From the NCBI RefSeq assembly GCF_900112175.1, contig NZ_FOYT01000002.1, positions 930,001 to 994,000 of the forward strand: DNA of 64,000 bases, read 5' to 3'. Position 1 is the stretch's first letter; each line of letters opens with the position of its first letter. Positions 53,965-59,811 of the stretch are shown piece after piece. Origin of the DNA: Halogeometricum rufum. Lineage in GTDB: Archaea > Halobacteriota > Halobacteria > Halobacteriales > Haloferacaceae. The translations under genes were made by a program, and so were the position numbers. The notes below the pieces were generated by a model. That model worked only from the letters and a program-made list of their open reading frames with translations, had not been told where the DNA came from and did not search any database.

Positions 53965-55353
53965 ATGAGTGACCCGGCTCTCGAGGTGGTCGAGTTCCTC
54001 CTCACGGCCAATCTCTACTCCGAGAACCGTGAGTTAGACGAGAACGACCTCCCGCCGCGGTACCGCCGAGTCTTCTGGACGGACCCGCCGGACGACGAGA
54101 ACGAAGACGACGAAACGGCCCCCATCGGCATCGAACGCCCCCTAGTCGTGACCGACAGCGTCGCGCGGAAGGCCACGGGCGTCGAACGGCCGTGGGAAGC
54201 TATCTCCGACCTCATGTTCACCCAGCGCGAGGACTTCTCGGGACGCATCTCCCTCACGCAACCCGACATGGCCGTCGACTGGTACCTCGAACGGGCCGAC
54301 CGTGAGCAGTTGGAGACCAACCCGACTATCGCGGCCGCCGTCGAGGACCGCGACGACGTGGACGTGACCCACGCCGAGGCGCGCGAGCAGACCCGGTCGA
54401 TTCAGGCCGACCGCGTCTGGATAGACAGCCTCCTCGACCAGTACTTCGACGAGGAGGAGGACGCGGAGATGCTGGACCTCGTGCAGGTCCGCGCGCCCGA
54501 GGAGATAGAGATGACCCTCGAAGACCTCGTGCTGACGAGCGACCAGGAGGGCGAGATTCACAAGCTGATGAAGGCCATCGAACACCGCGAGTACCTCGCG
54601 GACATCGGCCTCAGAGAGATCGGCAAGATACTGTTCGTCGGGCCGCCCGGGACCGGGAAGACCACCGTCTCCCGCGCGCTGGCGCACGAACTCGGCCTGC
54701 CGTTCGTCGAGGTGAAACTCTCGATGATAACGAGTCAGTACCTCGGCGAGACGGCCAAGAACGTCGAGAAGACGTTCGAGGTGGCCAAGCGACTGTCGCC
54801 GTGCATCCTCTTCATCGACGAGTTCGACTCGGTGGCGAAGACCCGCCGGTCGGACGAGCACGCCGCCCTCAAGCGCGCGGTGAACACCCTGCTGAAGAGC
54901 ATCGACGACATCTCGCTCATCCGCGACGAGGTCATCCTCATCGGGGCGACCAACCACCCCGACCAACTCGACGCGGCGGCGTGGCGGCGCTTCGACGAGA
55001 TCGTCAACTTCCCCAAGCCGGACCGGCAGATGCGCTCGGACATCCTCCGCATCATCACGAAGCAGATGGACGTCACGGAGTTCGACCCCGACGACATCGC
55101 CGACCGGACCGAGGGACTCACCGGGTCGGACCTGCGCATGGTCCTCCGCGAGGCGGTCCTCGAAGCCCTCACCGAGGAGCGGATGGCGCTGACGCAGGAG
55201 GACATCGTCGACGCCGTCGAGGACTTCGAGGAGCGGGACAACCTGAAGAACATGGACATGATGTCCGACGGCGAGCAGTTGATGGCGGGCGACGGCGCGG
55301 GCGACGACGATCACTCGCACGACCACGACCACGACCACGACCACGACGACTGA
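53965..55353 (+). CDS. AAA ATPase with His/Asp-rich C-terminal tail
   Basis: This 462-aa single-ring AAA protein has an N-terminal domain (1-210) of unknown function that includes YRRVFWTDPPDDE and a helical stretch. Walker A is GPPGTGKT at 226-233; Walker B CILFIDEFDS is near 280-288. A lid with GLTGSDLRMVLREAVLEAL follows. It is close to the PAN/CDC48-like clade but has only one ATPase domain and no coiled coil. The C-terminus ends HSHDHDHDHDHDD, encoded by a CACGAC-type repeat, a possible metal-binding tail. The promoter box lies 28 nt before the ATG. The role is probably protein unfolding or remodelling; the partner is unknown. Confidence 0.88.
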   Translation: MSDPALEVVEFLLTANLYSENRELDENDLPPRYRRVFWTDPPDDENEDDETAPIGIERPLVVTDSVARKATGVERPWEAISDLMFTQREDFSGRISLTQPDMAVDWYLERADREQLETNPTIAAAVEDRDDVDVTHAEAREQTRSIQADRVWIDSLLDQYFDEEEDAEMLDLVQVRAPEEIEMTLEDLVLTSDQEGEIHKLMKAIEHREYLADIGLREIGKILFVGPPGTGKTTVSRALAHELGLPFVEVKLSMITSQYLGETAKNVEKTFEVAKRLSPCILFIDEFDSVAKTRRSDEHAALKRAVNTLLKSIDDISLIRDEVILIGATNHPDQLDAAAWRRFDEIVNFPKPDRQMRSDILRIITKQMDVTEFDPDDIADRTEGLTGSDLRMVLREAVLEALTEERMALTQEDIVDAVEDFEERDNLKNMDMMSDGEQLMAGDGAGDDDHSHDHDHDHDHDD

Positions 55354-55390
55354 GCGCGGTCGCCGGCACCGCCGTTCCCCTTCGACTACG

Positions 55391-55396
55391 CTTATC
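55391..55396 (+). promoter_or_regulatory. TATA-like box (CTTATC) for the PhnP-like gene
   Basis: CTTATC is centred 28 nt upstream of the ATG at 55422, in line with a leaderless transcript. Confidence 0.45.
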
Positions 55397-55421
55397 ACTC
55401 ACCCGTCCCCTACACCCGACG

Positions 55422-56246
55422 ATGCGCGTCACTCTCCTCGGCACCGGCGACACGACGGGGACGCCGACCGTCGGGTGCGACTGCGACACCTGCCGGGAGG
55501 CGAAAGCCCGGGGCGTGGAGCGCACCCGCTTCTCCGTCCACGTCGAGAACGACCGGACGGGCGAGTCGTTGCTCGTCGACTTCAGCCCCGACTTCCGCCA
55601 GCAGTTTCTGACGCACGACGTGCCCCTCCCGGACGCGGGCCTCGTCACGCACATCCACTTCGACCACATCGACGGCCTCGGCAACGCCTACCGCGTGTTC
55701 GAGGACCTGCCCGTCCACGCCGCCGACGAGACGGACCCGAAGACGGGCCAGAGCGTCGCCGAGACGGTCGCCTCGAAGTTCGACTACCTCGACCGCATCT
55801 CCGTCGAGGCGCACGCGCCGTTCGAGGCGTTCCGAACCTGCGGGCTGGACGTGACGCTCGTGCCGGTTGACCACCCGCCCCTCCTCTGCTACGGACTCGC
55901 GGTCGAGGACCCAGAGACCGGCGCGAAACTGTCGCTGTCGGGCGACACGAGTTACGGCGTCCCCGAGGACTCGAAGGCCGTGCTGTCGGACCCCGACCTG
56001 TTCCTCGCCGACGGCATCGTCCCGGCGTCGCTCTGCAAACACCACCCGCTCGGCGGGAAACACCACGACGAGGCCGGCGTCCCGCGGACGTTCGGCACGA
56101 AGCACATGACGCGGGAGGGGGCGCTCTCTCTCGCCGAGGAACTGAACGCCGCGCGAACCCGCCTCGTCCACACCGCGCACTACTACCCCGTCGAGGAGGC
56201 GTTCGAGGAACCGCTGGCCGTGGACGGCGAGCAGTACGACCTGTAG
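55422..56246 (+). CDS. PhnP-like MBL-fold phosphodiesterase
   Basis: This 274-aa MBL-fold hydrolase has the PhnP/RNase Z-related signature: GTGDTTGTPTVGCDCDTC with the zinc-binding Cys cluster, and THIHFDHIDGLG as the metal-His motif. Later LSGDTSYG and LVHTAHYYP supply further ligands. PhnP hydrolyses 5-phosphoribosyl 1,2-cyclic phosphate in phosphonate use; no phn genes are near. A cyclic-phosphate or tRNA-related substrate is inferred only. It follows the AAA ATPase gene by 68 bp and has its own promoter box. Confidence 0.88.
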   Translation: MRVTLLGTGDTTGTPTVGCDCDTCREAKARGVERTRFSVHVENDRTGESLLVDFSPDFRQQFLTHDVPLPDAGLVTHIHFDHIDGLGNAYRVFEDLPVHAADETDPKTGQSVAETVASKFDYLDRISVEAHAPFEAFRTCGLDVTLVPVDHPPLLCYGLAVEDPETGAKLSLSGDTSYGVPEDSKAVLSDPDLFLADGIVPASLCKHHPLGGKHHDEAGVPRTFGTKHMTREGALSLAEELNAARTRLVHTAHYYPVEEAFEEPLAVDGEQYDL

Positions 56247-56502: not shown

Positions 56503-57486
56503 TCACAGGAACCGGTCGAGGCCGCTCTGCCGCCGCGCGACGCCCGCGGGGTCGCGCACCCACGGCGTCCGGTCGTCGCGGAGTGCGGCGGCGTCGAGCG
56601 CCGACGGGTCGCCCGACTCGAACGCCCGGCAGTCCGCGCCGCAGTCGCGGCCGGGTTCGACGACGCAGTCGAACGCCGCGCAGTAGGGACGCCCGTCGTC
56701 GGTCGCACGCGCGTTCGCGCACGGCGGCAGGTCGTACGTCCGCCAGCCCTTGCCGTACGTCCGCTCTGCGACCCGCAGTCGCGCCCGTCGCTTCTCCGCC
56801 GCCGAGACGACGGACACGTCGGTCCGGAGGGGGCGTTCGGCCGCGAGTTCGACGCCGGCGGCGTCGGAATCGAGCGGCGTCGGCTCCCGGACGACCGTTC
56901 GGTCGCCCGTCGCGGGGTCGAATCGCCAGACGCCGACGGCCGCAGGGATGCGGTTCAGGTGCGCGCGAGTGACGTAGCTCTCCGTGGCGAGAATCACCTC
57001 GTCGAACAGGCCCAGTGAGACGTCCGTGCGGAGTTGGCGCTCCAAATCGCCCGGGTCGCCGAGGTCCGGTTTGTTCTCGACGCCGACCAGTCGGCCGAAC
57101 CAGTCGTCGGGGTAGCGCGTCGTCCGGCGGACGTACTCGCGCCCGCCGCGCCACTCCGACTCGAAGAAGCCGACGTCGACGGCCCCGTCGACGGCGTCTC
57201 TGGCGGCGTCGCGGTGGCAGTCGAACGCGTCGCGCCAGAACACCGCCTCGCCGACGCCCACGTCGCTGGTGATGGCGCGATGGGGAATCGACGCTTCGGT
57301 GACGGCCGCGCGAGCCTCGAAGGCCGGCCCGGGGACGACGCCGCAGACGTCGACGATGCGGCGGCCCGGGGCGGCGACGGCGGCGCCGAGTTGCCGACCG
57401 AGCACCCACTCCGTGGTCTGTTCGAGGTGCGAACAGAGCGCTACCTCGAAGGCGAACTCGCGCGGACGGTCGGTCCCTGCGGCCAC
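56503..57486 (-). CDS. DUF5787 protein with PD-(D/E)XK-like and Cys-cluster motifs
   Basis: This is a 327-aa haloarchaeal DUF5787-like protein. By eye it carries features of Cas4/RecB-type nucleases: an N-terminal Cys18 in FEVALCSHLEQ, a strand ending in D46 (RRIVDVCGVV), a later strand with E137-x-K139 (LVGVENKPDL), then a helix with Q151 (LERQLRTDVSL) and a strand FDEVILATE. Near the C-terminus five Cys (256, 269, 274, 282, 286) sit in PYCAAFDCVVEPGRDCGADCRAF. This looks like an Fe-S cluster closed by Cys18 in Cas4/AddB fashion. The nuclease reading is my inference. The start is GTG at 57486, with CCCTTTTGTCC 27-30 nt upstream. It converges with a small membrane gene. Confidence 0.72.
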   Translation of the reverse strand: MAAGTDRPREFAFEVALCSHLEQTTEWVLGRQLGAAVAAPGRRIVDVCGVVPGPAFEARAAVTEASIPHRAITSDVGVGEAVFWRDAFDCHRDAARDAVDGAVDVGFFESEWRGGREYVRRTTRYPDDWFGRLVGVENKPDLGDPGDLERQLRTDVSLGLFDEVILATESYVTRAHLNRIPAAVGVWRFDPATGDRTVVREPTPLDSDAAGVELAAERPLRTDVSVVSAAEKRRARLRVAERTYGKGWRTYDLPPCANARATDDGRPYCAAFDCVVEPGRDCGADCRAFESGDPSALDAAALRDDRTPWVRDPAGVARRQSGLDRFL

Positions 57487-58578: not shown

Positions 58579-59811
58579 ATGGTGACACAAAACCCACAAC
58601 AACCGGAGGTGAACATCGGACTGGTCGGTCACGTAGACCACGGCAAGACGACGCTCGTGCAGGCGTTATCGGGCTCGTGGACGGACCAGCACTCCGAGGA
58701 GATGAAACGCGGCATCTCCATCCGCCTCGGCTACGCCGACGCGACGTTCCGACAGATTCCCGGCGCCGACCCGCCGGAGTGCTACACCGTCGAGGAGACG
58801 GACGAGGACGGCAACGAGACGGAGGTCCTGCGCACCGTCTCGTTCGTCGACGCGCCCGGTCACGAGACGCTGATGGCGACGATGTTGTCCGGGGCGGCCA
58901 TCATGGACGGCGCCGTCCTCGTCGTGAGTGCGACCGAGGAGGTGCCGCAGGCGCAGACCGAAGAGCACCTGATGGCGCTGGACATCATCGGCATCGACAA
59001 CATCGTGGTCGCGCAGAACAAGGTCGACCTCGTGGACCGCGACCGCGCGGTCGAGAACTACGAGCAGATTCAGGAGTTCGTGAAGGGCACGGTGGCCGAG
59101 GACGCACCCATCGTCCCCATCAGCGCCCAGCAGGAGGTGAACATCGACCTCCTCATCGACGCCATCGAGCGCGAGATTCCGACGCCCGAACGCGACGAGA
59201 CGAAGGCCGCGCGGATGTTCACCGCTCGCTCGTTCGACATCAACCGCCCCGGGACGACGTGGGAGGACCTCTCCGGCGGCGTCATCGGCGGGTCCGTCGT
59301 CGAGGGGAAACTGACGAAGGGCGAGGAACTCGAACTCCGCCCCGGCCGAGAGGTCGAAGAGGGCGGGCAGACCGAGTGGAAGCCCATCACCACCGACATC
59401 CGGTCGCTGCAGGCGGGCGGACAGATGAGCGACGAGGTCCGCCCCGGCGGCCTCTGCGGCGTCGGGACCGGTCTCGACCCCAGTCTGACGAAGGGTGACG
59501 CCCTCGCCGGTCAGGTCGCGGGCGAACCCGGGTCGCTGCCGCCGACGCGCGAGGAGTTCACGATGGACGTGGAACTGCTCAACCGCGTGGTCGGCGAGGA
59601 CGAGGAGACCGTCGAGGAGATTTCGACGGGCGAACCGCTGATGCTCACCGTGGGCACGGCGACCACCGTCGGCGCGGTGACGAGTGCGCGCACGGGCGAG
59701 GCCGAAGTCTCGCTGAAGCGCCCCGTCTGCGCCGCCGCCGGTGCGAAGATAGCCATCAACCGCCGCGTCGGCGCGCGGTGGCGACTCATCGGTATCGGGA
59801 CGCTGAAGTGA
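58579..59811 (+). CDS. eif2g: Translation initiation factor aIF2 subunit gamma
   Basis: This 410-aa GTPase subunit of aIF2 binds Met-tRNAi and the 30S subunit. G domain: [11 protein letters not shown] (G1), [11 protein letters not shown] (switch I region), [15 protein letters not shown] (G3), NKVDLV (G4). Beta-barrel domains 2 and 3 follow, with TRREEF-type strands and the C-terminal [16 protein letters not shown]. The Cys loop includes [11 protein letters not shown], with fewer Cys than in other archaea. It heads a core operon: its TGA overlaps the PIN gene's GTG by 4 bp. The ATG at 58579 is supported by the Shine-Dalgarno. Confidence 0.97.

Follow-up and report, generated by a model that had tools for sequence, protein, structure and literature searches.

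A class-wide haloarchaeal protein pair with a predicted PD-(D/E)XK nuclease core and, in one member, a putative PCNA-interacting tail

The locus and its two-gene family

The window analyzed here is a 64,000-nucleotide stretch of Halogeometricum rufum DNA (contig NZ_FOYT01000002.1, positions 930,001 to 994,000). On its reverse strand, at 56503..57486, a 327-amino-acid open reading frame (ORF) with a GTG start encodes a protein that matches Pfam family PF19100 (DUF5787) over model positions 1-277 of 278 (E 7.2e-94, 315 bits). A sequence-only reading of the window had placed a DUF5787 gene here, and the ORF list and the Pfam match (E 7e-94) bear out both the placement and the family. A literature search found no paper that names DUF5787. 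We call this gene paralogue B (DUF5787-B); the same genome carries a second copy, paralogue A, at G000:C1:1696131.

The surroundings of the B gene are conserved and serve here as context only. To one side lies a stretch encoding aIF2-gamma, a PIN protein, RpoE1, a DUF359 protein and S24e, in which RpoE1 and aIF2-gamma were named by eye; the aIF2-gamma gene (58579..59811, forward strand) is the divergent neighbor, with synteny in most B loci. To the other side are genes for a metallo-beta-lactamase-fold protein and an AAA ATPase, the former being the convergent neighbor (55338..56246, forward strand), assigned from Pfam Lactamase_B_2 and synteny. The arrangement is absent in some lineages, e.g., Halorubrum. 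In about 20 of 26 loci, the genes flanking paralogue A encode a NUDIX protein, DUF5797 and a conserved small protein. The stretch L157:6957-9119 is an example of paralogue A with DUF5797 and a NUDIX hydrolase beside it, and a functional link is possible. The neighborhoods of A and B are thus of the information-processing or housekeeping kind and are not defense islands. The sequence-only reading had remarked that no CRISPR genes lie nearby; consistent with this, we found no CRISPR-like repeat in the 40-64 kb part of the window, and the neighbors are housekeeping genes. Searches for a defense role gave no PADLOC or PHROG match.

We observed DUF5787 above the curated cut-off in 289 of the 292 genomes of the class, nearly always as two genes; the three-match genomes that we inspected (e.g., G026 and G045) were split matches of one gene. 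G021, G218 and G286, which have neither copy, are genomes of 1.9 to 2.3 Mb that belong to two different families and may have branched early. When 295 genomes of the phylum were sampled, DUF5787 was confined to Halobacteria. The one Pfam match elsewhere, in G481, and the weaker profile matches that were checked (E 0.0004 to 0.6) were rejected as homologs outside the class, since they lie mostly over the four-Cys stretch. Nine of the 12 match rows outside Halobacteria fall in ORFs of 663 to 756 amino acids, and the one that was read through is a methionyl-tRNA synthetase (MetRS) with a zinc knuckle. Two f15 matches, which span just 34 residues, were likewise set aside.

A phylogenetic tree separated A (43 sequences) and B (111 sequences) cleanly on a long branch with support of 0.93 to 1.0, and this clean split points to an old duplication of which both copies were kept. 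Identity between A and B is about 32%. Nine pattern matches were found in viral contigs, none of them a relative, and a viral origin was therefore rejected; one plasmid record carries a copy. We conclude from its near-universal presence, conserved neighborhood, lack of a viral homolog and single plasmid match that DUF5787 is a core, chromosomal and vertically kept family. In Haloferax massiliensis (L145), the B gene looks frame-shifted in the assembly, which is either a real loss or a sequencing error.

Conserved residues, predicted fold and the Cys4 site

Which residues of the protein are kept across the family? Conservation was counted in 112 B loci, jointly in 75 A and B sequences, and in a 65-row diverse alignment of A and B. 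The loci include close relatives, so the counts are not independent; the fair tests are 32 order-wide B sequences (44 to 68% identity to the window protein) and the comparison of A with B, and these gave the same outcome. D46, E137, N138, Q151, C256, C269, C282 and C286 were invariant in the 65-sequence alignment, and these residues together with P140 and D155 were invariant or missing in one truncated or divergent row. D46, a candidate metal-binding Asp (57349..57351, reverse strand), is present in 112/112 B and 43/43 A copies. E137-N138-K139 (57070..57078, reverse strand) forms a (D/E)xK motif followed by the invariant P140: E and N are each found in 111 and K in 110 of the 112 B copies, the exceptions at position 139 being one copy with N and one with A, and the motif is kept in 43/43 A copies. 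Across 155 copies of A and B, catalytic-type residues of the D...(D/E)xK pattern thus show little or no variation. Q151 (57034..57036, reverse strand), which with D155 forms a Q-x3-D motif, is kept in 111/112 B and 43/43 A copies. Equal to these in invariance are E10, E14, E22, R31-Q32, R43, R236 and G247-W-R249, as is the B tail Q320xxL323xxF326.

Each residue named in the sequence-only reading is at the position given there. The set itself was borne out in part when aligned over 112 B and 43 A copies: D46, E137, K139, Q151 and the cysteines at 256, 269, 282 and 286 held, and C18 and C274 did not. C18 (57433..57435, reverse strand) is a common but replaceable N-terminal cysteine, being C in 101, A in 8 and S in 3 of the 112 B copies, and C in 42 of 43 A copies with S in the other. 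Position 274 is C in just 8 of 112 B copies, and C274 is a chance cysteine.

An AlphaFold model of the window protein made from 65 sequences had a pLDDT of 90.6 and a pTM of 0.88, with disorder at the two termini only. Two segments make up a predicted PD-(D/E)XK core. The first half, residues 10-58 (57313..57459, reverse strand), comprises the helix bearing E10, E14 and E22, then R31-Q32, R43 and the D46 strand, and was delimited from model secondary structure, structural matches and invariance; the second half, residues 129-200 (56887..57102, reverse strand), was delimited from the model and structural matches. A predicted winged-helix insertion, residues 61-126 (57109..57306, reverse strand), separates the D strand from the ExK strand; many unrelated winged-helix regulators, chains of the MarR/ArsR/BlaI type, align to it alone in VIA-align (Z 6.3 to 7.3, rmsd 1.8 to 3.4 over 54 to 66 residues). 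This predicted winged helix accounts for the 91-residue gap between the catalytic residues D46 and E137.

VIA-align, which re-ranks Foldseek candidates only, placed 3dnx first (Z 11.5, 132 aligned, rmsd 3.3), followed by XisH 2okf and PaqCI 8em1 (both Z 8.6), EndoMS 5gke and NucS 2vld (both Z 7.5) and, lower, SfsA, Card1 and Can2 (about Z 7.2). We take 3dnx, 2okf, SfsA, Card1 and Can2 to be members of PD-(D/E)XK families. Foldseek against the PDB gave nothing below E 0.01 (best AF2093, E 0.018), perhaps owing to the interrupted domain. Against viral models (BFVD), the Foldseek matches at ranks 1, 2, 5 and 6 were named MmcB-like or DNA repair proteins, the best with E 9e-4. A Z of 7 to 8 by itself can reflect a common arrangement, and the fold call rests on the VIA-align Z scores, the BFVD matches and the residue pattern together. 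The fold and the invariant D, ExK and Q residues support the prediction that DUF5787 has a PD-(D/E)XK core and is a nuclease. The restriction-endonuclease-like core that had been read from motifs and spacing was thus recovered in the model, the top VIA-align rows being PD-(D/E)XK enzymes.

The C-terminal Cys4 site, C256-x12-C269-x12-C282-x3-C286 (56629..56721, reverse strand), is a candidate Zn or Fe-S site, invariant in A and B. Its spacing across the family is C-x12..28-C-x11/12-C-x3-C, with C282-x3-C286 fixed and the first interval varying from 12 to 28. Judged by this spacing, the site resembles neither Cas4 nor a classic zinc ribbon. The four cysteines make up a complete set without C18. 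Modeled alone, the C-terminal domain had a pLDDT of 85 and a pTM of 0.57; its fold matched nothing clearly, and the sole match was 2y8n_B, with Z 3.4 across 38 residues. We take 2y8n_B to be an Fe-S protein, yet a match of this size is too weak for an Fe-S call. A sequence search of solved structures gave nothing meaningful, the CDGSH matches (E 0.1 to 1) covering one Cys only. The leads to the metal are weak and opposed, with 2y8n_B on one side and a resemblance to the MetRS zinc knuckle on the other. The Fe-S cluster that had been proposed is possible, and a Zn site is equally so.

The C-terminal tail and a proposed role

A QxxhxxA motif at a flexible terminus is PCNA interacting and is found in archaeal PCNA partners (PMC4929162). 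The B protein ends in QSGLDRFL (residues 320-327; 56506..56529, reverse strand), within a tail that the model leaves disordered (pLDDT below 50 over residues 316-327). We observed Q320, L323 and an aromatic residue at 326 in 111/111 intact B copies, and the motif in 0/43 A copies. Column entropies are 0.07, 0.07 and 0.66 bits at 320, 323 and 326, whereas many columns just upstream have 2 to 3 bits. In the same genome, PolB, FEN1 and NreA end in QTGLGSFM, QTGLDQWT and QTNLGDFS, which have the same form; like QSGLDRFL, they are without the second aromatic of the strict QxxhxxaA.

By composition, an end of this type is expected by chance in about 4e-4 of proteins, and of the window's 347 ORF ends only that of DUF5787-B matched. 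Among 8,008 ORF ends from all loci, the matches other than DUF5787 were mostly established PCNA partners, namely NucS, NreA, PolB, FEN1 and RNase HII, along with about five chance ORFs; the loci of the first four had been fetched deliberately, and that of RNase HII had not. We conclude that DUF5787-B carries a predicted PCNA-interacting (PIP) box, newly recognized here and absent in paralogue A. The protein had been described as a chromosomal nuclease of unknown role: the chromosomal part stands, and the conserved PIP box of the window copy now narrows the role.

Two other ORFs end in a PIP-like box. At L067:5094-6671 (forward strand), a Dam-like N6-adenine DNA methyltransferase, so named by eye, ends in QTGLGEFSE and is a candidate PCNA-bound DNA methylase. 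At L073:5811-6776 (forward strand), a Cys-rich protein of unassigned family ends in QSSLGSFS and is a candidate PCNA partner.

The family assignment, residue invariance, fold, wing insertion, PIP-box conservation and near-universal pairing computed here lead us to think it probable that DUF5787-B works in haloarchaeal chromosome maintenance as a PD-(D/E)XK endonuclease tethered to PCNA, a picture in which catalysis, PCNA binding, metal identity, substrate and pathway are the inferred elements. The PIP box would dock the protein on the sliding clamp, either in the wake of the replication fork or at patches of repair, where the winged helix in the core and the Cys4-stabilized C-terminal domain would grip DNA and select the substrate. 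D46, E137 and K139, with E14 and Q151, would bind a metal ion and cut a single strand in a post-replicative structure that is aberrant or branched. An aberrant post-replicative structure is the most likely substrate by analogy with NucS/EndoMS and MmcB, and DUF5787-B would then probably trim or repair newly copied DNA. Paralogue A, which has the same catalytic and Cys residues and no PIP box, might make a related cut off the clamp or be a partner subunit. We regard as evenly balanced the broader proposal that DUF5787 is an unrecognized class-wide core pair of DNA-maintenance nucleases, wing-inserted PD-(D/E)XK proteins with a Cys4 site, one PCNA tethered and one free, serving a replication-coupled repair step that is done otherwise in other archaea.

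Perhaps the wing reads methylation, as in DpnI, or helps to choose the new strand? DUF5787-B would then be a modification- or strand-sensing endonuclease, a MutH-like partner of MutS/MutL on PCNA. In PD-(D/E)XK enzymes, DpnI among them, winged helices do sense N6-methyladenine (PMC11037411), PCNA tethering would supply strand orientation, and MutS/MutL are present in H. volcanii (PMC7776575). However, the wing is a separate domain in DpnI and lies inside the core in the DUF5787 model, and we saw no genomic link of DUF5787 to mutS/mutL, so we consider this role unlikely. It is similarly improbable that DUF5787-B is a non-catalytic or structural partner of PCNA that keeps the nuclease fold for DNA binding only. 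No activity is known and residue 139 is replaced in the two B copies noted above, but both paralogues retain D46, E137, K139 and Q151 throughout the class, more than binding alone would require.

Haloferax volcanii is a main genetic model of archaeal replication and repair, and to our knowledge its known PCNA partners are few. DUF5787-B is near-universal in haloarchaea and has a predicted nuclease fold and a tail of the PCNA-docking type, as do PolB and FEN1 for the tail. Should a PCNA-tethered nuclease be the right reading, the archaeal replisome gains in DUF5787-B a core nuclease directed by the clamp, for which the tail-less twin, paralogue A, is a built-in comparison.

Comparison with known nucleases and PCNA partners

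The RecB-family signature is QxxxY, and the cluster ligands of Cas4 and AddB are one N-terminal and three C-terminal cysteines. The sequence-only reading had called the protein a Cas4/RecB-type nuclease from the order Cys, D, ExK, Q and Cys set. That order is present in the window protein as described: D, ExK and Q in sequence and a Cys-rich C terminus are shared with Cas4 and AddB, and C18 is kept in most A and B copies. However, hhalign of DUF5787 against Cas4 or NucS gave E 0.4 to 0.8 (0.5 to 0.8 for Cas4), the same as unrelated controls, whereas the positive control, NucS against Cas4, gave E 1e-5; nor did the window protein match Pfam PF01930 at E 10. QxxxY is replaced by Q151xxxD155, with D at 155 in all A and B sequences covering it. 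The four C-terminal cysteines are invariant and C18 is replaced in 12/155 copies, a pattern of 0+4 and not 1+3. Moreover, a winged helix between the D and ExK strands is not a Cas4 feature, and DUF5787-B has a PIP box and no CRISPR context. Cas4 and AddB were not among the structural match rows, but these only re-rank Foldseek candidates and the absence alone proves nothing. Fold and residues thus support a PD-(D/E)XK nuclease and not the narrower Cas4/RecB label: Cas4 membership is not supported, and a Cas4/AddB-like RecB-family nuclease that processes DNA ends and holds a 4Fe-4S cluster by one N-terminal and three C-terminal cysteines is very improbable.

The archaeal PCNA-binding repair proteins NreA and NreB resemble DUF5787-B in their C-terminal PIP box, and in many archaea Nre has a Cys4 domain (PMC4929162), as DUF5787 has its Cys4 site. 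Unlike them, DUF5787 has no Pfam relation to Nre, and the same genome encodes a separate NreA.

MmcB is an SOS-regulated PD-(D/E)XK endonuclease that confers mitomycin C resistance in Caulobacter. The MmcB family (PF06319) is the closest fold to DUF5787 in BFVD, and 3dnx, the top PDB row, is presumably an MmcB homolog. At about 150 amino acids, however, MmcB has no room for the wing, Cys4 domain or PIP box seen in DUF5787-B. Pfam PF06319 gave no match to DUF5787 at E 10, and a search of 148 genomes from the phylum turned up no MmcB. A phage MmcB-like protein considered as a bridge was only marginal to Pfam MmcB and had no PDB match; hence, the link of MmcB to DUF5787 stays structural. The repair role reported for MmcB includes crosslink resistance (PMC9578287).

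NucS/EndoMS (PF01939), known from archaea and actinobacteria, is a RecB-like nuclease with a PIP box that acts on branched or mismatched DNA (PMC4929162, PMC7776575). DUF5787 shares with it the PD-(D/E)XK core of the model (2vld and 5gke), and DUF5787-B shares the C-terminal PIP box found in many archaeal NucS members (PMC4929162). In contrast, DUF5787 has no profile similarity to NucS (hhalign E 0.4 to 0.5) and no Pfam PF01939 match, and NucS has an N-terminal OB-like domain and is without the winged-helix insertion and the Cys4 site. The NucS proteins of three haloarchaeal genomes (L181, L182 and L188) lack the C-terminal PIP box, which is kept in the NucS copies of other lineages of the phylum (L183-L187); a partial hand-over of clamp binding is possible. 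Since the separate NucS of the H. rufum genome has no PIP box, DUF5787-B may replace it there as the clamp-bound nuclease, although this is a guess. On the best reading, DUF5787-B is like NucS/EndoMS in logic, yet belongs to a separate family, and would act in replication-coupled repair.
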